A DNA stretch of 64,000 nt from positions 64,130 through 128,129 of the forward strand of contig JACREF010000005.1 of assembly GCA_016218365.1 (NCBI GenBank), given 5' to 3'. Shown one piece after another: positions 19,993-60,535 of this stretch (position 1 is the stretch's first letter; each line of letters begins with the position of its first letter). The DNA is from Gammaproteobacteria bacterium. Its GTDB lineage: Bacteria > Pseudomonadota > Gammaproteobacteria > SZUA-140. The notes under the pieces were generated by a model. That model was given only the letters and a program-made list of their open reading frames with translations, was not told where the DNA came from and did no database searches. Both the position numbers and the translations under genes were made by a program.

Positions 19993-20019
19993 TCACGCTA
20001 CGCAAATTCATACCACGGC

Positions 20020-20040
20020 CCCGGTTTTCAAATCACCGGG
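20020..20040 (+). terminator. Hairpin after aguB
   Basis: CCCGGT...ACCGGG (6 bp, loop of 9) followed by TTTAGTT lies 28 bp beyond the aguB stop. It is a modest intrinsic terminator candidate. Confidence 0.45.
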
Positions 20041-20046
20041 TTTAGT

Positions 20047-20052
20047 TATAAT
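20047..20052 (+). promoter_or_regulatory. Consensus -10 box before the DAHP synthase gene
   Basis: A perfect TATAAT lies 33 bp before the ATG at 20085; the -35 region (about 20024-20029) is unlike consensus and overlaps the preceding hairpin. Confidence 0.45.
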
Positions 20053-20084
20053 CCACTACTACCAAGCACTATAGAGTAACCACC

Positions 20085-21206
20085 ATGATCCTGATCCTCC
20101 GGCCCAATACCGACCATAACAGCGCGGATTACCGCAAACTGATGGATTATCTTACCAATCTGCCGAACATCCAGTCCCGTATTCATCAGGAGGTTGGCAC
20201 CCAGCAACACCTGACCGAGGTTTACCTGATCGGTGATACCAAGGCCTTGTCGATCGAGGATATGCAGACGCTGCCCACCGTCGAACGGGTGGTCCGAATC
20301 TCGGAAGAGTATCGCGTACTGGGGCGTCACAAGTCAGGCGACAATCGCCCCACGTCTTTCGAATACAACGGCGTACATTTCGGCCAGAACAATCTCAACA
20401 TCTTCGCCGGGCTATGCGCCGTTGATAACCCCCAGCATGTCGAACTGATGCTGAAGGCGCTACAGGAAAATGGCCAGACCTGCACCCGGATGGGCGCCTA
20501 CAAACCCCGCACCAATCCTTATTCTTTCCAGGGCCATGGCAAAAATTGCCTGCCCTATGTCTTCGAACTGGCCGGAAAATACGGCATGCGCGTTATTGCT
20601 ATGGAAGTCACTCACGAGAGTCATGTCGAGGAGATTCGCCAGGCCCTGCATATCACCGGCAATCCAACCGGTGTCCTGCTGCAGATTGGCACCCGCAACA
20701 CCCAGAACTTCGAGTTACTAAAGATCGTCGGCCGGCAGCATGAATTTCCGGTGCTGCTGAAACGCGGCTTTGGCATCACACTGGAAGAATCTTTGAATGC
20801 CGCTGAATATCTGGCGTCTGAAGGCAATCGCAAGGTGATCTTTGGCCTACGCGGCATGAAGACCAATATGGGTGACCCGCACCGCAACTTCGTTGATTTC
20901 GCCCATGTGCCGGTGATTCACCGCCTGACGCGAATGCCAGTCTGTATCGATCCATCCCATTCAGTAGGCTCACGTGAACAGTCGCCAGATGGCATCCTTG
21001 ACATCATGAGTGTCACCGCCCAGGGGATCATCGCCGGCGCCAACATGGTCTTGATCGACTTCCACCCTGCCCCAAGCAAGGCGTTGGTCGATGGCCCTCA
21101 GGCCATGCTGTTGAAGGAACTGCCACACTTTTTAGAAGATGTTGCGATCGCCCGCAAGGCGTATGAGGCAAGGACTGCACTGGCTAAACGCTACCAAACC
21201 AAATAA
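20085..21206 (+). CDS. aroF: 3-deoxy-7-phosphoheptulonate (DAHP) synthase, type I-beta
   Basis: Joins phosphoenolpyruvate and erythrose-4-phosphate as the first step of the shikimate pathway. The 373-residue protein has an N-terminal ferredoxin-like regulatory domain (MILILRPN... to about residue 70) like Thermotoga-type enzymes, then the TIM barrel with GAYKPRTNPYSFQG, LLQIGTRNTQNF, VLLKRGF, VIFGLRGM and the metal-binding CIDPSHSVGSREQ. This class differs from the AroFGH enzymes of E. coli and is related to KdsA, which is also in this window. It is monocistronic, between aguB and the convergent pilin cluster. Confidence 0.93.
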   Translation: MILILRPNTDHNSADYRKLMDYLTNLPNIQSRIHQEVGTQQHLTEVYLIGDTKALSIEDMQTLPTVERVVRISEEYRVLGRHKSGDNRPTSFEYNGVHFGQNNLNIFAGLCAVDNPQHVELMLKALQENGQTCTRMGAYKPRTNPYSFQGHGKNCLPYVFELAGKYGMRVIAMEVTHESHVEEIRQALHITGNPTGVLLQIGTRNTQNFELLKIVGRQHEFPVLLKRGFGITLEESLNAAEYLASEGNRKVIFGLRGMKTNMGDPHRNFVDFAHVPVIHRLTRMPVCIDPSHSVGSREQSPDGILDIMSVTAQGIIAGANMVLIDFHPAPSKALVDGPQAMLLKELPHFLEDVAIARKAYEARTALAKRYQTK

Positions 21207-21251
21207 ATCGCATCAGCAATACGCAGTGATATCCTCAGTAATGACCGGTCT

Positions 21252-21278
21252 CCTGGCCTGTGATGATCACAGGCCAGG
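21252..21278. terminator. Perfect 12-bp inverted repeat between convergent genes
   Basis: CCTGGCCTGTGA and its complement flank a 3-base loop, between the ends of the DAHP synthase gene (+) and the pilin gene (-). The position suits a two-way terminator, but neither side has a T-run, so it could also be an mRNA end stabiliser or protein site. Confidence 0.55.
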
Positions 21279-21292
21279 GCTTGCATCATCAA

Positions 21293-21688
21293 TTAACCCG
21301 GCCAGCAATCCGCACCACCGCCGGTAGATCCCTTGACGCCACGCGACGTCAAGGTCAACGAACCACAACCGGTATCCTGATCCTGACCCTTGCCGGCCAC
21401 AGGTGCCGCCGTCAGAGTGTAGGAATTCCCGTCAACCGCAATGGCAACCGAGACCGCATAGAGCCCGAACTCAGTGGTCGCGGGTACCGTGCACCCGGTA
21501 TAGGTTGACAGATCCGAGCGACAGCTCTCCATCTTAAAACTGGCCTTGGTCAGCGCAACCTGCGCATCCGATCTACGGGACTTCATCGCCTGGTTGCGAT
21601 ACGACGGATAGGCAATCATAATGATGATCCCCAGAATGACAACCACCACCATCAGCTCGATCAGCGTAAATCCTCGTTGTCTATTCAT
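21293..21688 (-). CDS. pilE: Type IV pilin, PilE-like minor pilin
   Basis: A 131-residue prepilin with a short leader (MNRQRG) cut before FTLIELMVVVVILGI, Glu at position 5 of the mature chain, then a soluble domain with four cysteines (CRSD, GCTVP, GCGS, DCWPG) able to form two disulfides. ATG 21688 is chosen because it gives the canonical six-residue leader. It is last in a fimT-pilVWX-pilY1-pilE cluster, the position of PilE in Pseudomonas, where it is part of the minor-pilin priming complex. Confidence 0.88.
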   Translation of the reverse strand: MNRQRGFTLIELMVVVVILGIIIMIAYPSYRNQAMKSRRSDAQVALTKASFKMESCRSDLSTYTGCTVPATTEFGLYAVSVAIAVDGNSYTLTAAPVAGKGQDQDTGCGSLTLTSRGVKGSTGGGADCWPG

Positions 21689-21708
21689 ACAGCTGCCCTC
21701 TCTCCACA

Positions 21709-24700
21709 TCAATATCTGATCTGCCAATAGGTCCTCTGTACAGGAAGCTTCAGAGGGGCCTCACCAATCTTGTCAGCACCGACCAGAATCACCGGGTCAC
21801 TGCCATCTGGTGGGAAGATGATCGTCGGCTCCGGCGGGATACCACCACGTGTTAACACCAGAGAACGGTCCGACAGCGTCAGATTGGCATCAAGATTATC
21901 CAGATTAAAGGCCGGACTTGCATCTGCGGTCTTGACGATATAGGTCCGACCCACCCCCTGACTGGGCGCGCAGGTATTTGCATTATTGGCAGCCACAGGC
22001 GTAAAGGTTGTGAAGGTCGTGTAACCACCAAAGGTGCGTGACTCGGCCAGAACCTTTTCGCCCAGATTACCCGCCAGCCTGATATACCAACCCTTTGAGT
22101 TGCTAAGATTGGGAGCAAGGGTATTGGTGACATCGGTCAAGTCTGCTTCAGTCAATGTTGTGTAGCTTATCGGCGCTACAGACACATTGCTATCCATAAC
22201 CATATAAAACCTGTCTATGGTCTGCGTATCCAGCGGATGTTCACGGTAACCCGATCCAATGGTGATTGCATAGACATTACCGGTGGCGGTCTGCATCAAA
22301 GACACATCCGGTTTATAGTAAAAACGCCGATTATCCGCTACAGCCGCCCCACCCAGACTGGCAATGACGCCGCCTCTAGCCAGATTGACCGACCCGGTGT
22401 TTGCCATGTCAAAATCAAATCTCCACAGCTGCCCTGTCATATCACCGAAAAACAGCGTGTTGATATACCCATCCCCATCAATATCCACCGGCACAACACC
22501 GCCCGGAACACTGTTGGTCATGTCGGTCAGCACCAGATCAGCACCACTTCCCGCCGGCCCTGCCCACCACAGACGTTGGCCGGTATCGGCATCAACAATA
22601 TAGATGGCCCGGCCCGCGGTGTCATCAAGATGGCCACCGATGGTATCCTGTGTTGTATCGTAGCCACCGCCAAATACCAGAACCGTATGCGTGACGCCGT
22701 TCAGTTTCAGCTTGGCCAGCGATGGCCGTGACCAGGTCTCAGCCAGCTCGGCAAAATCACCCGTACCACCTTTGATCTCCCATTTAAGAACCGGATTACT
22801 GCGATCGGTCACATTCAGCGCGTAGTAATTCATACCACCACGGCGCATGCCGGCATAGATGTAGACAAACTCTCCACTCTCTACATTGCCATTGACATCC
22901 AGGATCACACCATTATTATTGGCATCATTGACCCAGCCCGTGATCTGCCCATCCATCCCATAGGGATGCGGTACTGTCGGCAAGTCCTCATAGACCTTCT
23001 CCAAATTAGGAAGGAGTTCCGGCGGAATAAAGGAGAAACGCTCAGAGCCATCACTGGCATTGATGGCATGCAAAAATCCTTCATTGGTACCAACGAAAAG
23101 CGTAATATCCGGGTTGTTGGCCGTACCTCCGTAATTGATCAATAACGGATTACTGTGCAACGGGTCGCCCATCGCATGCCTCGCATCCGTCACTGATCCA
23201 TTGGCATTCTCATCAAAAATGTCCACACCGCGCGACCATTTCATTAAATCGATACGATATTGATCGGTCTGCGCATTAATGTTTAACATGGCCTTGGTGA
23301 TCAAGGCATTATTCTCATGAAACAGGTTATTTGCACTAATGAGTGATACATTAACCGGGTCAACGCCTCCGGTATAAGTAAAAATATTACGATTGGCGGT
23401 TTGAACACTGATCGCACCACCTTTACCTACCTCATCACCATCCGGCGCATCGGCCACTGGCGTCCAGTAGCTGGTCGAGGTACTGCTGAAGAATCCGGTA
23501 TTGGCATCCACAGCCAGCGCACCATTCACATCACGCACATCAACCGGATTGCCACCAAACCCGTAGCGCTTGATATTACCTGCCCAGTCCGGGGTCAAGC
23601 CCGGCTTGAAAAGTGCGTAATATAATTCACCACGGTGTGTCAGCCTGTTAAAGGCATTCACTGGTACTGCAGGTGCAACAAACATGGTATTGACTGCCAG
23701 AATCTGCGTCAAAATAGCAGTAAAGGCCTCGGTCAATCCAGTTATATTATCTACAGTATAGTATTTACCCCCGCCCTTTAACGCCGCATCGCTGAGCAAC
23801 TGCTGAGCAGTGGTGAACCCTATGAAGTAGTTTACGCTATTCTGTGTACCTGGCAGGGCTGTACTCTGATCTGCCGAATACATATACTTCGACAACTCAT
23901 CAAGACAGTCATTGCCATTATTAAACGAGCACGATCCTGCCACACTATTAAAACCCGGAAGAAGCGCAATATCTGCATCGGCGTCATAGTCAGAGGTGGG
24001 ATCACCATCTGTCAGCAGCACAGTGAAGTTTTTCTGACATTGATATTGGACTGGCGTATTATATTTACTTGAGTTCCCGGTAACGAGGACGTCTGAATGA
24101 TTTTGTCCTGGGGTCGTGGAGTTGCCAAACTTCACGTTCTCGCCCCGATAGAATCGCGCCACTTCATACATGGTCTCGGCCAGCGGGGTGTTGCCTGCAG
24201 CCGTCAGATTATTTACCGTCTGCTTGATAGTCGGGCGAGTAACATCTGTCACCTGCGTCATCGGCAGCAGGAAATAACCACCCTTATTGCTGGTTCCACT
24301 GTCACCATCATAACGCACAACAGTGATATTCACGCCGGCCGTGCTATCCATGACCTTGCCAAACACCTCCTTGACAATTTCCAACCTGGACTTCTGGGTA
24401 AATCCGCTCGAACCATTGGCCCAGTTCAAATAATTTGCACTGTATAGGGTGTAACTACCCCCCACGCTGTTCCAGTTCACGGCATTGGTAGAATTGGCGC
24501 GCCATGGACCACCATTGGTCGAATTAGCCGGGTAATTATTGGCCCCACCATTACCATGAATACCCCAATCGGCCTGACACTCGACACTATCCGTATGAAC
24601 ACTTGAACTTAGATTCTGCCAGGTAAAATTCTTTTTATTGGCCCCGTAGCGCGCCAGCCGTCCTACATATACCCCGGTTGAATGCGGTTGATCACCAAGA

Positions 24701-25056
24701 TTAACACTAGAGTCCAGGCAGAAGTTCTTGGACGCATCAAACCATTGATTATTGCTGGCACATGACGGTGGAGTGGTGCTGCTGCCAGCCGTCGTTGATT
24801 GCCAATAAATCTTGGCCGGGTCGCAGACGCCGTCATAGATCTGATTAGGATCAAAGATACCATTTACAACATCGACCATGGTACTCATGCTGCCGGAGGT
24901 ATCGATGATGAATACAATATTTGGCAATACCGTCGACAGATTATTGGTACCCATGTATATCTCGGTATCATCCGCCCACGCTGGGGCTGATATCATAATG
25001 GCCAGCGTACCGCCTGCACAGGCATTGATAAATCTCTTCATATAATAGGCAACCAT
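21709..25056 (-). CDS. pilY1: PilY1 pilus-tip adhesin / assembly protein
   Basis: A 1115-residue secreted protein with a signal peptide (MVAYYMKRFINACAGGTLAIM...AWA). The N-terminal von Willebrand A domain has the MIDAS motif DTSGSMS near residue 52 and LLTDGDPTSDYD. The C-terminal PilY1 beta-propeller region carries Ca-binding-type loops DIDGDGYIN and DANNNG. ATG 25056 follows AGGAGG at 7 bases. PilY1 sits at the pilus tip, promotes pilus extension and adhesion, and in Pseudomonas reports surface contact to c-di-GMP signalling. Confidence 0.94.
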   Translation of the reverse strand: MVAYYMKRFINACAGGTLAIMISAPAWADDTEIYMGTNNLSTVLPNIVFIIDTSGSMSTMVDVVNGIFDPNQIYDGVCDPAKIYWQSTTAGSSTTPPSCASNNQWFDASKNFCLDSSVNLGDQPHSTGVYVGRLARYGANKKNFTWQNLSSSVHTDSVECQADWGIHGNGGANNYPANSTNGGPWRANSTNAVNWNSVGGSYTLYSANYLNWANGSSGFTQKSRLEIVKEVFGKVMDSTAGVNITVVRYDGDSGTSNKGGYFLLPMTQVTDVTRPTIKQTVNNLTAAGNTPLAETMYEVARFYRGENVKFGNSTTPGQNHSDVLVTGNSSKYNTPVQYQCQKNFTVLLTDGDPTSDYDADADIALLPGFNSVAGSCSFNNGNDCLDELSKYMYSADQSTALPGTQNSVNYFIGFTTAQQLLSDAALKGGGKYYTVDNITGLTEAFTAILTQILAVNTMFVAPAVPVNAFNRLTHRGELYYALFKPGLTPDWAGNIKRYGFGGNPVDVRDVNGALAVDANTGFFSSTSTSYWTPVADAPDGDEVGKGGAISVQTANRNIFTYTGGVDPVNVSLISANNLFHENNALITKAMLNINAQTDQYRIDLMKWSRGVDIFDENANGSVTDARHAMGDPLHSNPLLINYGGTANNPDITLFVGTNEGFLHAINASDGSERFSFIPPELLPNLEKVYEDLPTVPHPYGMDGQITGWVNDANNNGVILDVNGNVESGEFVYIYAGMRRGGMNYYALNVTDRSNPVLKWEIKGGTGDFAELAETWSRPSLAKLKLNGVTHTVLVFGGGYDTTQDTIGGHLDDTAGRAIYIVDADTGQRLWWAGPAGSGADLVLTDMTNSVPGGVVPVDIDGDGYINTLFFGDMTGQLWRFDFDMANTGSVNLARGGVIASLGGAAVADNRRFYYKPDVSLMQTATGNVYAITIGSGYREHPLDTQTIDRFYMVMDSNVSVAPISYTTLTEADLTDVTNTLAPNLSNSKGWYIRLAGNLGEKVLAESRTFGGYTTFTTFTPVAANNANTCAPSQGVGRTYIVKTADASPAFNLDNLDANLTLSDRSLVLTRGGIPPEPTIIFPPDGSDPVILVGADKIGEAPLKLPVQRTYWQIRY

Positions 25057-25083
25057 ATCTCTACCTCCTGGACACGATCCAGA

Positions 25084-25398
25084 CTAGTACATCTCAACTG
25101 AAATTGCGTTGAAGGTCTTTGGATCATAGATCACCAGACCACCGCCATAATTTCCCGTCAATTCCTTGGTAACAGACAGTTTCTTTTTCTTCTTTATAAA
25201 TTTAGTCTTTGCTGTAACAATAAGGACCTTGGCCTTACAGTTACTACACTCTGCCGCCCTGACCTGCCCAGTCACATCCGTATCCATGGTGATAACCATG
25301 TAACTGGCCTCGACCGCCTCTTCAAGCAGGACAATCCTGGCCTGCGCGACACCTGGCGCTGTCAGCAGGGCTGCAATCAATACATATACTGATCTCAT
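25084..25398 (-). CDS. Small secreted CxxC protein inside the pilin cluster, function unknown
   Basis: A 104-residue protein with a signal peptide (MRSVYVLIAALLTAPGVAQA) and a mature part of about 84 residues containing one CxxC pair (ECSNCK) and a lysine run KKKKK. The ATG at 25398 is supported by GAGGTG six bases upstream; a GTG start three codons earlier is possible. It lies between pilX and pilY1, where standard clusters have no gene. I do not recognise the family. Its place suggests a periplasmic partner of PilY1 or the minor pilins, perhaps metal- or disulfide-related; this is inference. Confidence 0.75.
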   Translation of the reverse strand: MRSVYVLIAALLTAPGVAQARIVLLEEAVEASYMVITMDTDVTGQVRAAECSNCKAKVLIVTAKTKFIKKKKKLSVTKELTGNYGGGLVIYDPKTFNAISVEMY

Positions 25399-25413
25399 AT
25401 GGCTCACCTCACA

Positions 25414-25866
25414 TTAAAGTTTAGGCCCGACCCGCTGCAGACCCTGAACATGTTTTTCCTGGGAGCTGGTTGCACCCACGGTGGCACTGGACTCTACGGT
25501 GAATGGATACACGGCAAAATCCGAGATACTGTATCCGACGGCAGGCCCTGAGGCACCACCCGTCACCGTGGCCGTCGAGCTGATGGCAGGACCACCGGCC
25601 ACACCGTTATGGGTAAAATTTCTCGTCACGACACCTGCGCCAGACAGCGCCGAGACTATCGCTGAATTATCATTGACCGTCCCTTCGATTGCAGACTCGG
25701 CGGCCTGGAACATAACCGTCTGATTTTGGGAGTTTGATGCCATATTCTTCTCAAATACCGTTGTTCTTACTCCATTTACTGCCAGCAGGGTCAAGATCAG
25801 CAGGATGATCAGCCCCATCAGCATCGCCACCCCTTTTTGATGCATACCTGATGATTTCATAATCAT
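25414..25866 (-). CDS. pilX: Type IV pilus minor component PilX
   Basis: A 150-residue PilX family protein with the N-terminal hallmark QKGVAMLMGLIILLILTLLAVNGVRTTVFEKNMASNSQNQTVMFQAAESAIEG, a membrane helix lacking the classic Glu5 motif. ATG 25866 overlaps the pilW stop by 4 bp. PilX bridges PilVWE to PilY1 in the pilus-priming complex. Confidence 0.9.
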   Translation of the reverse strand: MIMKSSGMHQKGVAMLMGLIILLILTLLAVNGVRTTVFEKNMASNSQNQTVMFQAAESAIEGTVNDNSAIVSALSGAGVVTRNFTHNGVAGGPAISSTATVTGGASGPAVGYSISDFAVYPFTVESSATVGATSSQEKHVQGLQRVGPKL

Positions 25867-26597
25867 CCCCTCTTGTTTCTGAGCGTAACGGTGGTGACAT
25901 ACAGACGACGTCTTAACTTATCATTGGCTGCCGCCTTGACCACCTGGTCAATGACGCGATAACTGTTGGTATCCGGATCCGGGATTATGCTGTTCACTGA
26001 ATTGACAAGCACCCCGATCCTGACGCTTACCACCTGAGTCCAGTCTGGAACACGGTCGGCACGCAGATATTTGGTAGCATTGACGACGCCGTCTGCGGCA
26101 TTCCCATCAACACCATACAACACCTGAAACGACTCCACACCCTCGGCAATAATCTGATCATTTATGACTGTATCATCCTCAGCCAGCGTCGAGCATTTCA
26201 TATTCGTACCATTCACATAATAGACATTCTTTGCATATTGCATGGTATCCGCATAGACCGGGGTTGCATTACCCAAACAATCTGTAGATGATTCATAGCG
26301 CACTGCTATGGCGTCATTACCCGCCCCGCCATCAGTCGAACGCGCGGTCACAAAGGCGTTGATCCCGGATACCTGCGGATAACCGGCCATGGCAATATCC
26401 TGCGATAACATATCAATCACCGTCCGCCCATTCTCCTGCATCACAGACATTCCTGTCTGCAGGCTATATGCCTGCCTGGAGGAACCAAACACTGCAATCA
26501 ATCCGCCAATCAGAAATACACCAAGCGTCATGGCCACCATGGCCTCAACGATGGTGAATCCCTGCTGCCTGTTAAAAGAGAACGACAGTCGATACAT
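25863..26597 (-). CDS. pilW: Minor pilin PilW
   Basis: A 244-residue prepilin-like protein: leader MYRLSFSFNRQQG cut before FTIVEAMVAMTLGVFLIGGLIAVFG, then a long soluble domain with CLGN and MKCST cysteines. ATG 26597 gives a normal leader and a 26-bp overlap with pilV; longer reading is open but would give an atypical N-terminus. It is a member of the priming complex. Confidence 0.88.
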   Translation of the reverse strand: MYRLSFSFNRQQGFTIVEAMVAMTLGVFLIGGLIAVFGSSRQAYSLQTGMSVMQENGRTVIDMLSQDIAMAGYPQVSGINAFVTARSTDGGAGNDAIAVRYESSTDCLGNATPVYADTMQYAKNVYYVNGTNMKCSTLAEDDTVINDQIIAEGVESFQVLYGVDGNAADGVVNATKYLRADRVPDWTQVVSVRIGVLVNSVNSIIPDPDTNSYRVIDQVVKAAANDKLRRRLYVTTVTLRNKRG

Positions 26598-27072
26598 TTT
26601 TGTTAACCTGATTGCCATCAACGTCTTGTTGCTGCCAGGATATGACCACATCAAGACCAGCGCCCGACGCAGCAACACTTGCGGTGGCGTTGGGAATTGC
26701 CGCCTTCACGGCACACACCCATGCCTTGGAGTCATCAGCCGCGACCTGGGCGGCGGTACAATCTATGGCATTTCCGTTGATCGTATCGCTGCATATCAGC
26801 ACCGGTGGTGTTGCGCAGCTGATCCCGGCATAGTTGATCGCCGCATAATCCCCTGCCCTGGCGCCTACAACATTGGCCCTGATACGCTCTGACATATCAT
26901 TAATAAATAATGAAGCCTGGGTCTGCATCTGCGCATCGCTATTGCCACGAACCCCTACCGTCATCTGCAACTTGGCCACACCCAGTATCCCGATCGCAAG
27001 GATCAGCACGGTCACCAAGATCTCCATCAGCGTAAACCCGCTTTCCTTTGTCCAATGAAGCGGCATCATCAT
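26572..27072 (-). CDS. pilV: Minor pilin PilV
   Basis: A prepilin of about 166 residues whose leader MMMPLHWTKESG is cut before FTLMEILVTVLILAIGILGVAKLQ. The start is one of a run of three ATGs at 27072-27064, or an ATG at 27078; the first overlaps the fimT stop (ATGATG). The soluble domain has several cysteines (SCATP, ICSD, DCTA, VCAV). Confidence 0.88.
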   Translation of the reverse strand: MMMPLHWTKESGFTLMEILVTVLILAIGILGVAKLQMTVGVRGNSDAQMQTQASLFINDMSERIRANVVGARAGDYAAINYAGISCATPPVLICSDTINGNAIDCTAAQVAADDSKAWVCAVKAAIPNATASVAASGAGLDVVISWQQQDVDGNQVNKNVSTVVLF

Positions 27073-27644
27073 GCACATACCAGCACCATAGCATTACTGT
27101 CCTTGGTCGATATTTTCCCTGCAAAACTCAGATCTATAGCCCGGGCCTTAGCAACCCCGCGGCTATCGCAATAGGTAAACGTCCCAAGGCCAACCGGATA
27201 ACCACGAGCCTGGTAGGTGACCGCAGAGGCCGCAACACCCGTACCAATCATCGTTACCGTGCCATTAATCCTTTCATGGTTTTTCAGGATCTCATCACCT
27301 GCATCGATACTGGCCGGCGCCATATCATTATTCACAAAGATCAGCCAACCGTTCTCCCAATTCTGCCCGGAACATTGCGCCCCATTCACAGTCGGGCACA
27401 CCGATACCTGGCGGCCCCTCTTGACGGCCTCGCTGCGGGCATAGTGGAAACTGGAAACCAGATCATTTACTGCAGCAAGACGACGATTATCCAGGATCAA
27501 CCCCTGGAAGCTTGGGACGCCAACAGAGACCAGGATCCCGGCGATCACTATCGTGATGATCAGCTCATACAGGGTAAATCCCCGCTGCAGGGCTGGCAGC
27601 GATGACTGCAGCAGCTTTGCACTTCCAGACCCATAAATATTCAT
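27069..27644 (-). CDS. fimT: FimT/GspH-type pseudopilin
   Basis: A 191-residue protein with a longish basic leader ending QRG before FTLYELIITIVIAGILVSVGVPSFQGLI, and a GspH domain with RRLAAVNDLVSSFHYARSEAVKRG, the usual FimT/GspH signature. Cysteines (VCPTVNGAQCSG, TYCDS, LVCA) may pair. ATG 27644 is set by AGGAG six bases upstream. It is the first gene of the minor pilin cluster. Confidence 0.88.
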   Translation of the reverse strand: MNIYGSGSAKLLQSSLPALQRGFTLYELIITIVIAGILVSVGVPSFQGLILDNRRLAAVNDLVSSFHYARSEAVKRGRQVSVCPTVNGAQCSGQNWENGWLIFVNNDMAPASIDAGDEILKNHERINGTVTMIGTGVAASAVTYQARGYPVGLGTFTYCDSRGVAKARAIDLSFAGKISTKDSNAMVLVCA

Positions 27645-28054
27645 CTCGGACTCCTGCATCGCATCTAACATATGACCGCCTAGCTCCACCATTCGACCTG
27701 CGTCTATTAAATTCAAAAAGTTACATATCCCTTACAATGATTATCGGCCCTCTATCCAGTGAATTCCGTGAAGGGCGTCGTGGTTCGCCTTAAAACGCCA
27801 ACATGCTATATATGTCAGATTTGGCAACAGGTTATCGGTCAGGAGACCATATTCTTGACGTCCCGGACGTTAGGATTATCTTTACGGAACAAATAACTAG
27901 CTAAACGGATACACTGCGGCCGGGATGGGTCAGCGATACATGCCGCACACACGATAGGAGGCCTGCCAAATTCGCAGTGATATTAAATACCAACGCAGCG
28001 CAGGTTTATTTAATATGTCTTAAAAATAGATATTATTTGAGCTGGACGCCTTAG
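27645..28054. other. Intergenic stretch between fimT and truD
   Basis: About 400 bp, more AT-rich than the flanks, with no credible ORF. It must hold the promoter of the pilin cluster, but I see no convincing -35/-10 or sigma-54 pair. A short inverted repeat ACGTCC-C-GGACGT lies near 27858-27870. No terminator is evident after truD. Confidence 0.5.
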
Positions 28055-29068
28055 TCATACCGAGGCAATTTCACGAATCACAGAGGTCGCGTAACCGCCC
28101 GAAGGCAGGAAAAATTCGACGCCAACGCCGCAATCCGTGAAGCTCCATTTAAGATCTGCAGGGCAAAGACGCAACGAGCGTCGTGATGCATCGATATCCT
28201 GTCCCAGCAGCCCTTCTGCAAACTCATGATAGGGCGCGATGGCACAGGCCTCGATTGCATCTACGATAACGCCCGGCCTCTTCCCGCCTTTGCCAAACAA
28301 CGGACCGGTGGGATGAATATCATGGCGATTACAGCGATCAATGATATCATCTGTCACCTCATCAATTGAGAATACGCTAGACGTGCCATCTAGCATCATG
28401 ACATCACCCGGAAGCGCCATATCCCAATTGCTTAGCCGCACGCGCTCGGATAGAACCGCATTGAATAGCAATGACCTGGCCGCAGACAGCATCATACCTT
28501 GATTGCCACGTCTTACCTTGCGCTCACCACGCAGATAGGCGAGAGACTGATCGATATTGTCACGACCAAAACGCTGATCACCGAAATAATTGGGAACTCC
28601 ACAGCGACCGATCCTATCCAGTCTTGAGGTGATCTCTGCGTTATCACCAGATAGCTCATGCAACATAAGCTGGAAACGATTACCAATATGTATCCCGCGA
28701 CGCAACTTCTTGCCATGTCGAGCTACAGCAAGAACCTTGATTTTACCCTCGCTGTCCAGCTGCTTCCAGTCCGGTTCAACATGACCCGTTGTACAGACAC
28801 TGAACCATTACACAGTTACTGCATGCCGGTCCTTCAGTCCGCAATATCCAACATCACGCTCGCGAATCCCAACCAGATCGGCGATCAGTCGCGCCACATG
28901 GGCGGTATTTTGGTTACGTTTACGAATCTTCAGCAGTGTGTGCTCACCCACCCCATCCGGCTCAAAGCCCAACACTTCATCAACCTGAAAATCCTCAGGG
29001 GTGGCGCGTATCACTGCCTGCGCCAATGGCTTGCCCAGCGCACAATTCCAGTCCTGCATCGACAGCAT
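28055..29068 (-). pseudogene. truD: tRNA pseudouridine synthase D, interrupted by an in-frame TAA
   Basis: TruD makes pseudouridine 13 in tRNA. The frame from ATG 29068 encodes the family N-terminus and the catalytic segment YCGLKDRHAVTV, then meets TAA at 28808-28810. The same frame continues without any shift: WFSV, then LAVARHGKKLRRG, GNRF and the rest of the TruD domain to 28055. TAA sits where homologues have Gln (AVT-Q-WFSV), so one C-to-T change (CAA to TAA) explains it. Total length, 337 codons, is normal. An internal start near 28705 could yield only a fragment without the catalytic Asp. Alternatives are a sequencing error or recent loss. Confidence 0.88.
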
Positions 29069-29085: not shown

Positions 29086-29556
29086 TTATTCGCTCAACAA
29101 CACCACGGCATGAACAGCAATGCCTTCATTACGACCGGTAAAACCCATGCCTTCTGTCGTAGTCGCCTTGATATTCAGACGGGAAGTATCTACCCCTATA
29201 TCCTCCGCCAGCACCTGGGTCATCCTTGATCTGTATGGTGCCAGCCTGGGTGACTGGGCAACAATTGTGATATCGGCATTACTGAGTTGCAGCTGCCGCC
29301 CTCGAATCTTGGCCATCACCGCACGCAGCAGTATCCTGCTGTCAATGCCGCGGTATTGCGGATCAGCATCTGGAAAATGCTGGCCGATGTCACCCAGTCC
29401 GGCAGCGCCCAACAATGCATCACACAAGGCATGAATCACAACATCACCGTCCGAATGAGCCTCCATACCTTGCGGATGATCGATCCGGACCCCCCCCAGG
29501 ACCAGTGCAGCCCCTGTAGCGAAGCGATGCGCATCAAAGCCGTGTCCGATTCTCAT
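29086..29556 (-). CDS. ispF: 2-C-methyl-D-erythritol 2,4-cyclodiphosphate synthase
   Basis: Fifth enzyme of the MEP isoprenoid pathway, a zinc-dependent trimer. The 156-residue protein has the metal motif [10 protein letters not shown], the [38 protein letters not shown] region and the end [23 protein letters not shown] 29556 overlaps the ispD stop by 4 bp. The MEP pathway supplies the C5 units for the ubiquinone and squalene genes at 9-15 kb. Confidence 0.97.
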
Positions 29557-30260
29557 GATTGATCCACCTGTTGCCTTAGAAAATGTTCGGCCAGCCCCAG
29601 ATCCTGCGGCTCAGTAATCTTGATATTGTCAGCATGCCCTGGGACGATGCGCGGCGCCATGCCACAATATTCCATGGCACCGGCCTCATCGGTTACTAAT
29701 TGCCTGTCGGATACCACCTGCTCCAATGCTTGCAACAAGCTCTGCAGTCTAAACATCTGCGGCGTCTGGGCGCGCCACAGATGCCGCCGATCCACCGTCT
29801 CGATAACGCGCTGATCCTCGGTTGCCCGTTTGACAGTCTCGGTCACAGGAACTGCCAGCAAGCCTCCAACCGGATCATCACGCACGCTGTGAATCAGTCG
29901 TGAAATGTCTTCATTGCGGACACAGGGGCGCGCGGCATCGTGAACCAGCACCCAATCATCCGGCGCGGCAAATGACGCAAGATCACGCAGCGCATAGAGA
30001 ACAGACAGATGACGTTCGCTGCCACCACCCGCGGTATACAGTGGAATATCGCTTTTAATCGCCAATGTAGCCCAGTACTCATCATCGGCAGACAATGCGA
30101 CGACGATACCGGCCAGCTCCGGCTGCCGGGCCAGCCTTACCAGCGTATGTTCCAGGACCGGCCGACCTGCCAGCGACAGATACTGCTTGGGGACTATGCT
30201 CTGCATCCGCCGACCGCTGCCGGCGGCCGGCACCACGGCCCAGTAACGAGGCGTTGTCAT
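29553..30260 (-). CDS. ispD: 2-C-methyl-D-erythritol 4-phosphate cytidylyltransferase
   Basis: MEP-pathway enzyme attaching CMP to methylerythritol phosphate. The 235-residue protein opens with [21 protein letters not shown], the nucleotide-binding loop, and has [11 protein letters not shown] and [10 protein letters not shown]. It is coupled by 4-bp overlaps to ftsB upstream and ispF downstream. Confidence 0.97.
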
Positions 30261-55772: not shown

Positions 55773-56052
55773 CCGTTTCTGCGTTTGATGCCGAGCCACA
55801 GCTTCTGTGAGCAACGTATTGGACACGGTGTGGCACCGAGTATTTTGTGGGGCGCCTGCAGGCGCCAGGGGCCGCTCAGGCTACATCGAGCAGGCCTTGA
55901 TCCCGATGGGTGACTGATGCGGATGGTTTCATCCGACATCAACAGCGGAAAGACCGGGCGCGAACAGGGCGAAGCGATGGCAAGCAGGCAGCGCCAACAT
56001 CGTTGGCAGAAATGTTATTGTCCACTTGCAGGAAGCTGGCTAATAGGTGTCC
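55773..56052. other. Non-coding remnant sequence before the TIR gene
   Basis: No convincing gene. It contains a palindrome around GGCGCCTGCAGGCGCC (55851-55866). Likely decayed mobile-element DNA. Confidence 0.5.
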
Positions 56053-58530
56053 CTAAATATTTTTCACTTTTCTAAAATGATCCTGAAAGCTGCGTAGTAT
56101 TTTATCCTTTGTATCTAATGGATAATCTGTTAAACCACTTAATAGAACCTTCTCACCTCCTTCGAGGTTTCCTTCATATCCCATCAGATAGGCCTTTTGT
56201 TTTGTGAACGTTCTTTCAGAAATTGCATGCGATTTATGAAGCTTCTCTAATTCTGTCATAGCCTCTTTCATGCATAAAATGTCACCGCCTTTAACGGCTA
56301 ACTCGAATTTCATAAGATAAGGATAATGAATATCATGGTATGTGCTTATTGCATCATTGATAACATTTATGGCACCCCTATAGTCACTGCAGCATCTCGC
56401 CAAGTAGAGCGCTTTCGATGTCATTGCCATTTGACGGCCCACATCAGACCCACTACTTTCGAGCTCTTCATATAACATTCGCAACGTGTCCTTATGCTGA
56501 AAATAATCATTGCTATAAATCAGACAATTAAAATAAGCATGTACATGGTGAATATTACCTCTATTTTCCGAATAGTTTTGCCTCGCATAAATTAAGGCGC
56601 TGTCGTACTCTTCAATCTGTATAAGCACCTGCACAAGCTCTCTTTTTGCACGCGCGCCGACATATTGTTTATTTAGGATAGGCTCCAGCCTGCTAATAGC
56701 ATCTCTATGCCTGCCTTTAAGTCTATAATAATATCCTAGTAAAAAATTGTGCTCGTCACCCTGAATATTTTGCACTTCCCTTAAAAGCCTATCATTTTTG
56801 AGCCTCGCCAAAGAGAGACAAAGGTAATATCTTACATCAGAAACAAAATCTGCGTCCAAGTTGCTTGCTCTATCGAGCAAAATATCAGCTAATTCGATTA
56901 TGCGCTCATAGCCCTTGCGCTTTTGATAAAGATCCTTCATGCATCGAAGCATGTGAGAGGGGATAATTTTTGAATAATTTATATTAACACCCTCCTCTAG
57001 CGCCTCTTTAACTGAAAATAGATAATCAGAAGAGTCACGATCCAACCATTTATCTTCCTCTATAAAGGTTTTTACATGTTTCTTTATCCTAATCTTATAC
57101 TCTTCTTTTATCTCGAACTGATTTCTTTTAATAAAATCTCTAACCACATCATTTAATCGAATATATATCGCTTCAGATCCAATAAATTCACATATATTTT
57201 CAGCCATCAGCATTTCTAGAACAGGCGCATACTTAGCCTCTTCTACAATATCAAATATAAAATCTATGCTAATAAACTCAAACTGGGCCAAGAGTCTTAT
57301 GAATTGAAGGTATCCTTCATTTTCATCATAATTTCTTAAAAGCACAGAGGCCCTATCTGTGTTATATGCGGTGAGCTGATATACATCTTTTTTCGCCTTA
57401 TCAAGGCCATGTCTTTCGATAAGTTCAATACAAAATATTATTTGATCAGGAAAGCCATAAAACTGTTCAGAAAACATATCAAAATCATGTGCATCCATAA
57501 TAATATTATGAATCTCTAAGAGCTTGCTAAACAACCTTCTCCTCTCTGAGACTGAAAGCTCTGGCAAGTTGATAAACAAATAGCTATCCTTGTTTTTTCT
57601 ATCGCTGTAGCTAACTTTGTACTTCGAGGCACAGGCAATGACAGCCTGATTACTAAGGTGATGGTCGTTAATAATACGGTCAAACCAGCCCGCCACCTCT
57701 CTCTTATAGTTGACGATACAACCGTCATCAAGAACCAGAATAATATCTTTGCTATCTTGCGCCGCCTTAACTAAATTTGCTGCAATATAAATTTTATCAT
57801 TTAGAGACTTATCTATAAGGCTAACAATGTCATCAGTTGCGTCCGCATAACCAAGATCATTTAGCTTTACAATAAAATCCTCGACACTATCATTGCGACC
57901 CAAATAAATTGACGGGTACTCATAACTACTTTTAGTGATATTTGATTTTAATAGTGCGTTCTTAACAAATGTCCGGCGACCAATGGCTGGCAATCCTGAC
58001 ACGATCACGCATTTTGGCTTTGATGCATAGAAATCATCAATTCTTTCCTCAAATTCTTCAAGTTTATCATTTCTCCCAACAAAAAGATTTTGTCGCCTTT
58101 TAACCTCTGGATGATTATCCCAACTGATCTCACGAAGCTTTCCCCGAATCCTTCTTGCAGCAATAGTCGGTCTTGATATTAGCCGGATATTATAATCATC
58201 TTTTAGCCAGCTTTTTATTCTTGAATCATCATGAGTTATGCTGCTATCAATGAGGATCGGGTATATCTTTCGCAGATCACTACTATTCAGCTTGCCATAT
58301 GCCTCATCAAGCTCTTTGCTTACATGTGGCGAGTCAAGAGAATGGTTAGATACAAAAAATACAAATAATGCTGACTTATCAAGACCGAGCAATATTTCGG
58401 AAATCGTTCTCTCACCCTCTTCAAAAGAATACTCATCGTAAATAACATTTTCTTTCCCTAAGCAGTTAGCGACGATCCTGACATAGCGATCTTTATCCTT
58501 ACTTGAATGCGATAAAAAAGCTCTAATCAT
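56053..58530 (-). CDS. TIR-NTPase-TPR (NLR-like) protein, candidate antiphage effector
   Basis: An 825-residue cytoplasmic protein from an AT-rich gene unlike the backbone. Residues 1-130 are a TIR domain (IRAFLSHSSKDKDRYVRIVANCLG) with the catalytic-type Glu73 in SLDSPHVSKELDEAYG, suggesting NADase activity. Residues 145-480 are a STAND/NB-ARC-like NTPase: FVGRNDKLEEFEE, P-loop GLPAIGRRT at 179-187 with Arg where Lys is usual, Walker B ILVLDDG (264-270), ELSVSERRRLF and a GFPD motif (359-362). Residues about 520-825 are TPR-like helical repeats. AAGGGATGG precedes the ATG. It stands alone between IS debris and tRNA-Asn. The architecture matches bacterial NLR-like immune proteins; the Arg substitution is unusual. 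Confidence 0.85.
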   Translation of the reverse strand: MIRAFLSHSSKDKDRYVRIVANCLGKENVIYDEYSFEEGERTISEILLGLDKSALFVFFVSNHSLDSPHVSKELDEAYGKLNSSDLRKIYPILIDSSITHDDSRIKSWLKDDYNIRLISRPTIAARRIRGKLREISWDNHPEVKRRQNLFVGRNDKLEEFEERIDDFYASKPKCVIVSGLPAIGRRTFVKNALLKSNITKSSYEYPSIYLGRNDSVEDFIVKLNDLGYADATDDIVSLIDKSLNDKIYIAANLVKAAQDSKDIILVLDDGCIVNYKREVAGWFDRIINDHHLSNQAVIACASKYKVSYSDRKNKDSYLFINLPELSVSERRRLFSKLLEIHNIIMDAHDFDMFSEQFYGFPDQIIFCIELIERHGLDKAKKDVYQLTAYNTDRASVLLRNYDENEGYLQFIRLLAQFEFISIDFIFDIVEEAKYAPVLEMLMAENICEFIGSEAIYIRLNDVVRDFIKRNQFEIKEEYKIRIKKHVKTFIEEDKWLDRDSSDYLFSVKEALEEGVNINYSKIIPSHMLRCMKDLYQKRKGYERIIELADILLDRASNLDADFVSDVRYYLCLSLARLKNDRLLREVQNIQGDEHNFLLGYYYRLKGRHRDAISRLEPILNKQYVGARAKRELVQVLIQIEEYDSALIYARQNYSENRGNIHHVHAYFNCLIYSNDYFQHKDTLRMLYEELESSGSDVGRQMAMTSKALYLARCCSDYRGAINVINDAISTYHDIHYPYLMKFELAVKGGDILCMKEAMTELEKLHKSHAISERTFTKQKAYLMGYEGNLEGGEKVLLSGLTDYPLDTKDKILRSFQDHFRKVKNI

Positions 58531-58821
58531 GTCGACACCATCCCTTATAAATACTAATGATTGGAAAAAATTCGCAAAGTGTCGCAGCTACCTAACCTGC
58601 GATTGACCAACCCCAGCTCTCGTTTTACTAATCAGGGTTTGAGCTATAACAGCTACCGATAATAGCGATACTTGCTACCGCCGGCTACGGATTAATCCCT
58701 GCCCAGCCTAAGCAGCCATTCGTTGCAAGGCATGGAATACGAAAAATAAATGACGCCACAGCGCCAAGGTATGTTGCCATGCCCTGTCACTGCGGAACGA
58801 TCATCTAGGGGGTGAAAATAA
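58531..58821. other. Spacer between TIR gene and tRNA-Asn
   Basis: Holds the likely promoter of the TIR gene (TTTATAAG and TAGTATTT boxes 15-30 bp before the ATG) and a 15-bp sequence GGATTAATCCCTGCC at 58689-58703 that also occurs at 53679-53693. No gene seen. Confidence 0.5.
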
Positions 58822-58850
58822 CAAGGCCTGGACGCACTCTCCAGGCCTTG
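58822..58850 (-). terminator. Intrinsic terminator of tRNA-Asn
   Basis: CAAGGCCTGGA and its complement (11 bp, loop of 7) followed on the minus strand by TTATTTT, 6 bp after the tRNA end. Confidence 0.85.
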
Positions 58851-58856
58851 GGAATA

Positions 58857-58932
58857 TGGCTCCCCGAGCAAGACTCGAACTTGCGACCAACGGATTAACA
58901 GTCCGCTGCTCTACCGACTGAGCTATCGGGGA
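58857..58932 (-). tRNA. tRNA-Asn (anticodon GUU)
   Basis: 76 bases on the minus strand from TCCCCGA to encoded CCA. Acceptor stem TCCCCGA/TCGGGGA, D arm AGCTCAGTCGGTAGAGC, anticodon loop ACTGTTAATC giving GUU, T arm GTTCGAGTC. It marks the end of the accessory island and is a typical integration point. Confidence 0.97.
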
Positions 58933-59076
58933 TCGGTTGAGCCGGCTATATTACTGATCGGCTTTCCAAAGGTCAACCCGGGCGCGCGCTGGATCGGCGG
59001 CTAAGGTCTTGTATTTACGATGACTGCGCTGAATTCGCCGCCGTCTTGGCGGGCATCTTCAGCTCGTGCGGGATGC

Positions 59077-59871
59077 CTAGGCCGGCAAGGCCGACACGCT
59101 GACCGGCCGGCCCAGCAAGGCGGCCATGACCGGCTGCGCGGCCGCGGCCGGCCCACTACTATAGAAGCGCTCGCTGCCCGCCCGGCCCTCGTCGGCGAGC
59201 GCGTCGATCTCCCTCAGCCGGTGCATCAGCTGCCGCGCCACCGCCGGACTGGGGTCGATGATGATCATGTGCGGGCCGGCCACCTGACGGATCAACGGTA
59301 GTAGATACGGATAATGGGTGCAGCCCAGCACCAGGTGATCGACGCCCTGCGCCAGCAATGGCGCGATGGCCTGCTCGACCCGCTGGCGGATGTCCGGGGT
59401 GTTAAGCTGCCCGCGCTCGACGGCCTCGACCCAACCCGGACAGGGCTGGACCAGCACCTTGCGGCCCTGACCATAACTGGCGACCAGCGCGGCGAAGCGG
59501 TCGCTGTTCAAGGTACTGTGGGTCGCCAGGATGCCGACGACGCCGGTGGCGGTGGACATCACCGCCGGCTTGACCGCCGGCTCGATGCCGATGATCGGGA
59601 TCGCATAGCGGGTGCGCAGGGTCGTGATCGCGGCCGCGGTCGCGCTGTTGCAGGCAACTACAATCCCCTTGACCTGCTGCGTGAGCAGAAACTCGCTGAT
59701 CGCCAGCGCGCGTTCGATGATCTGCGCGGCCGGTTTCGTGCCATAGGGCAGGTAGGCGGTGTCGGCGACATAGATCAGGTCTTCGTGCGGCAGCAGGCGC
59801 TGGATCTGCGCCAGCACGGTCAGGCCGCCGAGGCCGGAGTCAAAAATCCCGATGGGACGATTATCTGTCAT
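59077..59871 (-). CDS. murI: Glutamate racemase
   Basis: Makes D-glutamate for peptidoglycan. The 264-residue protein has IGIFDSGLGGLTVL, the two catalytic cysteines in VVACNSATA and LGCTHYPYLLPL, and YVADTAYLPYGTK. ATG 59871 is the family start; upstream in-frame sequence overlaps the divergent Smr gene. The protein ends in a short Ala/Val-rich tail. Confidence 0.96.
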   Translation of the reverse strand: MTDNRPIGIFDSGLGGLTVLAQIQRLLPHEDLIYVADTAYLPYGTKPAAQIIERALAISEFLLTQQVKGIVVACNSATAAAITTLRTRYAIPIIGIEPAVKPAVMSTATGVVGILATHSTLNSDRFAALVASYGQGRKVLVQPCPGWVEAVERGQLNTPDIRQRVEQAIAPLLAQGVDHLVLGCTHYPYLLPLIRQVAGPHMIIIDPSPAVARQLMHRLREIDALADEGRAGSERFYSSGPAAAAQPVMAALLGRPVSVSALPA

Positions 59872-59995
59872 GGGCGCTATTCTAGCAGCCTGCTTCAATC
59901 CGCGCTGAGGGGCGACGCGGCCTTGGACCCGGCCTGTGGCGCCGCCCCCACGGCGCCATGTTACGATAATCACTGGGACCGCGGGTGATGCAGCG

Positions 59996-60535
59996 ATGAC
60001 AGGCGACAAAAAGACCGAACTCGATGCCGAGGAACGCGCGCTGTTTCGTGACAGCGTCGGCCCGGTGCAGCCCGTCATCAGCAACCGGGTCATCCCGGAG
60101 CGTCCGAAGCCCAAGCCGCAACCGCTGCCGCAGCCGCTGCAGGTCGATGATGACATCGATGACGTGTTGTCCGATGCCTTTGATCCGGTCGCGGGCAACG
60201 ATTTTGTCTTCATGCGCCCCGGCATCCAGCGCAACCGGCTGCGCAAGCTGGCCCAGGGGCAGCTGCCGATCCTGGCCGAGCTCGACCTGCATGGCCTGAC
60301 GATCCCGCAGGCACGGCGGGTCATCCTCGGCTTTATCGACGAATGCCAGCGGCGCCGCATCACCTGCGCGCTGCTGATCCATGGCAAGGGCACGCTGTCG
60401 CAGGACAAGCCGGTGCTCAAGCACAAGGTCAATATCTGGCTGCGCCAGCTGCCGGCGGTGCTGGCCTTCACCCCGGCCCAGCCGCGCCATGGCGGGGGCG
60501 GCGCGCTCTATATATTGCTGCGGCTGCCGGGCTGA
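59996..60535 (+). CDS. Smr-domain endonuclease (SmrA/SmrB type)
   Basis: A 179-residue protein with a disordered Pro/Lys N-part (RPKPKPQPLPQPLQ) and a C-terminal Smr domain: AELDLHGLTIPQARRVILGFIDECQRRRI, LLIHGKG, and HGGGGALYILLR. DLHGL plus HGKG are the putative catalytic elements. The KHKVNIWLRQLPAVLAF..HGG end resembles E. coli SmrA, while the intact LDLHGL is like SmrB, which cleaves mRNA between collided ribosomes. Confidence 0.9.
   Translation: MTGDKKTELDAEERALFRDSVGPVQPVISNRVIPERPKPKPQPLPQPLQVDDDIDDVLSDAFDPVAGNDFVFMRPGIQRNRLRKLAQGQLPILAELDLHGLTIPQARRVILGFIDECQRRRITCALLIHGKGTLSQDKPVLKHKVNIWLRQLPAVLAFTPAQPRHGGGGALYILLRLPG

Follow-up and report, generated by a model that had tools for sequence, protein, structure and literature searches.

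TruD is the pseudouridine synthase that acts on U13 of tRNA-Glu, and it has been studied in E. coli and V. cholerae. In V. cholerae the enzyme makes a single Psi13, in tRNA-Glu(TTC) (PMC12588516). The gene is dispensable in both bacteria: the E. coli deletion strain is viable (PMC13062092) and so is that of V. cholerae, where no growth defect was reported without stress (PMC12588516). Deletion of truD in V. cholerae did, in turn, increase stop-codon readthrough in reporters, with UGA being most affected (PMC12588516). A literature search for natural truD loss in Gammaproteobacteria found nothing on that point.

The truD gene considered here is located in a 64-kb window, i.e. the whole stretch of DNA that was analysed (G000:C18:64130-128129), from a genome of 2.26 Mb in 33 contigs with a completeness of 97%. 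Its closest named relatives by TruD are Gammaproteobacteria. The gene carries an internal stop codon, and the reading that accounts best for it is a very recent, probable inactivation of a dispensable tRNA-modification gene.

The internal stop of truD

The locus consists of the following features:

28055 to 29068, minus strand: truD (tRNA-Glu U13 pseudouridine synthase), 337 codons, full length except for the internal stop
28808 to 28810, minus strand: in-frame TAA, truD codon 87, at an invariant Gln position (100/100 relatives)
28811 to 29068, minus strand: N-terminal truD fragment of 86 codons that would be translated, with the GLKDRH motif and the presumed catalytic Asp80
28055 to 28807, minus strand: truD portion past the stop, 250 codons, still open, with all 33 of its highly conserved columns intact
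29086 to 29556, minus strand: ispF, intact, directly upstream of truD
29553 to 30260, minus strand: ispD-like gene, intact, upstream of ispF (name based on sequence and position)

The frame of truD opens with the ATG at 29068 and closes with a stop whose last base is 28055, and the uninterrupted frame expected of a single TruD enzyme is broken once, by the TAA at codon 87. The initial annotation had described an in-frame TAA at this place in a TruD that is otherwise full length and in one frame, replacing a conserved Gln and separated from CAA by one C-to-T transition; all of this was borne out. Its motif, AVT-Q-WFSV, correctly placed the stop at the Gln before WFSV but omitted a Val, the actual flanking peptide being GLKDRHAVTV-[TAA]-WFSV. 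The Pfam TruD family (PF01142) matches residues 1-86 alone (E=1.3e-18) as well as the post-stop residues alone (E=4e-35), and the read-through frame gives a full-length family match (E=5.7e-60). A frameshift or indel origin of the break is rejected: a single codon is substituted, and the frame aligns fully before and after it.

TruD was aligned to 100 relatives from the family, the class and beyond. The column of the stop holds Gln in every one of them, encoded by CAA in 40 and CAG in 60, and Gln is also found at this position in the solved structure of E. coli TruD (1sb7). A stop at codon 87 occurs in none of the 100. There are 46 columns with at least 90% conservation, and this truD agrees with the consensus in 45, the sole exception being Gln87; 33 of the 45 are situated past the stop. 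The TruD motifs are intact (the catalytic Asp in the GxKDRxAV segment, GNxF, PNYFGxQRFG and LPxGxxATxxxRE), and no second lesion was found in the alignment. The interruption is judged to be well beyond chance, as a single stop, placed at an invariant Gln, breaks what is otherwise a match to the family over its full length. By our own rule-of-three arithmetic (0 changes in 45 columns), the number of replacement changes since constraint ended would be below about 0.07 per conserved residue. When TruD divergence is scaled by that of IspF, this genome gives ratios of 1.55-2.03, which is within the range of the other pairs (1.35-2.16), and these ratios give no sign of long relaxed selection on truD. 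Taken together, the intact columns and the ordinary ratios imply that the break is very young, that the base is wrong, or that the protein is still made.

Interrupted genes elsewhere in the genome were sought by homology, since a scan for interrupted genes by codon usage is insensitive to truD, whose own codon-usage score is low. An antisense ORF overlaps truD. About 2.25 of the 2.26 Mb was covered, and the ORFs of one relative from the same family (157 conserved genes) were compared together with other loci, adding up to some 210 distinct conserved loci. Among these, no gene but truD is clearly interrupted. What else was flagged consisted of alignment tails, shadow frames on the antisense strand, and fused or tandem genes, plus two matches of low identity (C22:269023 and C9:85662). 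From a set of 200 in-frame-stop candidates, 17 highly ranked ones besides truD were scanned with Pfam; none showed a single family match spanning the stop, and most turned out to be two neighboring genes (e.g. thrS and infC). Judging from this survey, the TAA in truD is not part of a general genome defect. The remaining eight pseudouridine synthase genes are all open and free of stops, and the genome contains no second copy of truD.

Elsewhere in the window, the G+C content drops to 46-52% at 20000-28000 and 56000-60000 (59% for the genome), and 21709-27716 contains a type IV pilus-type gene cluster, whose members were named by eye as PilY1-like and minor pilin-like.

Absence of truD in relatives and the tRNA-Glu substrate

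Four genomes of the same family, representing three other genera, contain ispF with no truD behind it: G001 and G006 (g2), G003 (g4) and G008 (g5). The stretch downstream of ispF could be seen over 1.2 to 1.5 kb in each of them, one of the two G008 copies of ispF being cut by the contig end, and no TruD match was found anywhere in these four genomes. Some of the truD-less assemblies are incomplete, but the absence beside ispF is independent of completeness. A further genome, G004 (g5), lacks a TruD match as well; it counts for less, as ispF was not found there either. In the wider class sample, TruD is present in 23 of 42 good-quality genomes, so about half of the relatives are without it. On this comparison, absence of truD is common in the family, while the IspF tree lacks the resolution needed for counting independent losses. 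The two ispF matches of G008 lie on different contigs (L238 and L248) and reflect either a duplication or a strain mixture. The surE gene, which often adjoins truD in Gammaproteobacteria, has no match in the present genome; of the other 19 genomes of the family, 16 have it.

Loss of the substrate is ruled out as the cause of truD decay: U13 is kept in the only tRNA-Glu gene found here, as it is in the truD-less relatives whose tRNA-Glu was read. This gene, a tRNA-Glu (TTC) and the presumed TruD substrate, lies on the minus strand at G000:C1:74995-75070 (L269). Its anticodon stem has a C28-A42 mismatch (GGCAG, not GGCGG) that is not shared by any other tRNA-Glu gene read in the family. Several relatives also have a tRNA-Glu (CTC), which was not found in this genome.

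Readings of the stop codon

The initial annotation had left three options side by side, namely that Psi13 is lost, that the stop is read through, or that the base is wrong. The first is now favored, for truD is absent in three other genera of the family, is dispensable in model bacteria, and is the only one of the tested conserved genes to be clearly broken; a wrong base is kept as a rival, and readthrough is disfavored. The gene is thus best read, with reasonable though not full confidence, as a very young nonsense pseudogene. A C-to-T transition would have turned the codon of the invariant Gln87 into TAA, translation would most likely stop after 86 residues, just past the catalytic-loop segment, and no TruD would be made, leaving U13 of tRNA-Glu unmodified. 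We infer that the TAA is real in the living population and that termination at it is efficient, in which case Psi13 has probably been lost from the tRNA-Glu of this organism. Several marks of a nonsense pseudogene are found here, namely a premature stop, relatives whose orthologue is intact, and a genome without another functional copy, while the mutation is presumed to be real and fixed in the population. The position of the single stop, at a residue that is Gln throughout the alignment, speaks for this reading, as do the lack of a second truD or of any other broken conserved gene, the open frames of the remaining pseudouridine synthases, the truD-less genera and the viable deletions elsewhere. 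Against it stand the 45 other conserved columns, all intact with no second lesion, which would fit a fresh mutation and equally a wrong base or minority variant, and the normal TruD/IspF ratios, in which long relaxed selection leaves no visible trace.

If the base is real, we see truD just as it is being lost, in a family of Gammaproteobacteria that already has three other genera without it, and the locus adds a single example of how readily tRNA-Glu can do without Psi13 while keeping U13. Ideas on tRNA modification are unchanged by this, since truD was already known to be dispensable and patchily distributed. The inactivation is an ordinary event of a known kind.

The main rival holds that the TAA stems from an erroneous base, or from a minority strain variant that entered the consensus, and that the population has an intact truD and normal TruD. 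This is a serious possibility, albeit clearly the less probable one. The TAA is known from one assembly consensus, that of the one genome of its genus (and species) compared, and the rest of the gene looks fully constrained. Neither 16S rRNA nor tmRNA was matched, and several tRNA species (e.g. Ile and His) were not found; the missing 16S rRNA and the incomplete tRNA set suggest a metagenome-assembled genome, and together with the 33 contigs they are what short-read metagenome assemblies often show. On the other hand, lone substitution errors are rare in short-read consensus sequences, the approximately 210 loci, with no further gene clearly broken, point to a consensus of generally good quality, and absence of truD is already common in the family.

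Readthrough, by which some full-length TruD would be made with Gln or another residue at the UAA, is improbable. It would explain why all conserved downstream residues are preserved, and the increased readthrough of the V. cholerae deletion strain (PMC12588516) lends it some plausibility. Reassignment or suppression of the stop would call for a suppressor tRNA, a rare TAA or several conserved genes with in-frame TAA, none of which was found: no ochre suppressor is present among the 36 tRNA genes found, and TAA terminates 348 of the 1430 ORFs of at least 200 aa, making it by this count a normal terminator in the genome. These two observations render recoding at the truD TAA unlikely. Recoding would, moreover, be expected to come with a stop conserved among relatives or a downstream structure. 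The stop is absent from all 100 aligned relatives, and the 100 bases around and after it fold no better than shuffled sequences (z -0.80). The base after the stop is a U, and UAA-U is an efficient terminator context in E. coli. The ordinary use of TAA, the missing suppressor, the UAA-U context and the unremarkable downstream RNA are the reasons for which readthrough is disfavored.

The same must be said, even more strongly, of a TruD composed of two chains, the fragment of 86 residues and a C-terminal piece reinitiated at the TTG at 28705. From this TTG onward 216 codons are open, but it is the earliest in-frame start and lies 35 codons past the stop (the first ATG follows at 48 codons), which would deprive the protein of part of its core, and none of the relatives has a split TruD. 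Just as far-fetched is a self-regulating switch, analogous to prfB (release factor 2), in which low Psi13 in tRNA-Glu would cause more readthrough and hence the production of full-length TruD: such a feedback loop would be notable, and no sequence feature supports it.

Comparison with known systems

The E. coli TruD (1SB7, 1SI7 and 1SZW), a tRNA-Glu Psi13 synthase, can be aligned with the present protein over residues 9-335 and shares its intact conserved motifs. The two differ in the stop that occupies the invariant Gln87 position here. With programmed recoding, as in the autoregulatory frameshift of prfB or the use of UGA for selenocysteine, truD has in common an internal stop in a conserved frame. 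It differs in that the codon is UAA instead of UGA, there is no frameshift, no suppressor tRNA was found, relatives do not share the stop and the RNA shows no special structure. Closely similar as well are the unitary nonsense pseudogenes known for dispensable genes of bacteria. Compared to these, truD is unusual only in having no second lesion yet, the fixation of its mutation being putative. It shares with them the single-copy gene, the one premature stop in a sequence that is otherwise intact, and the related genomes from which the gene is absent.
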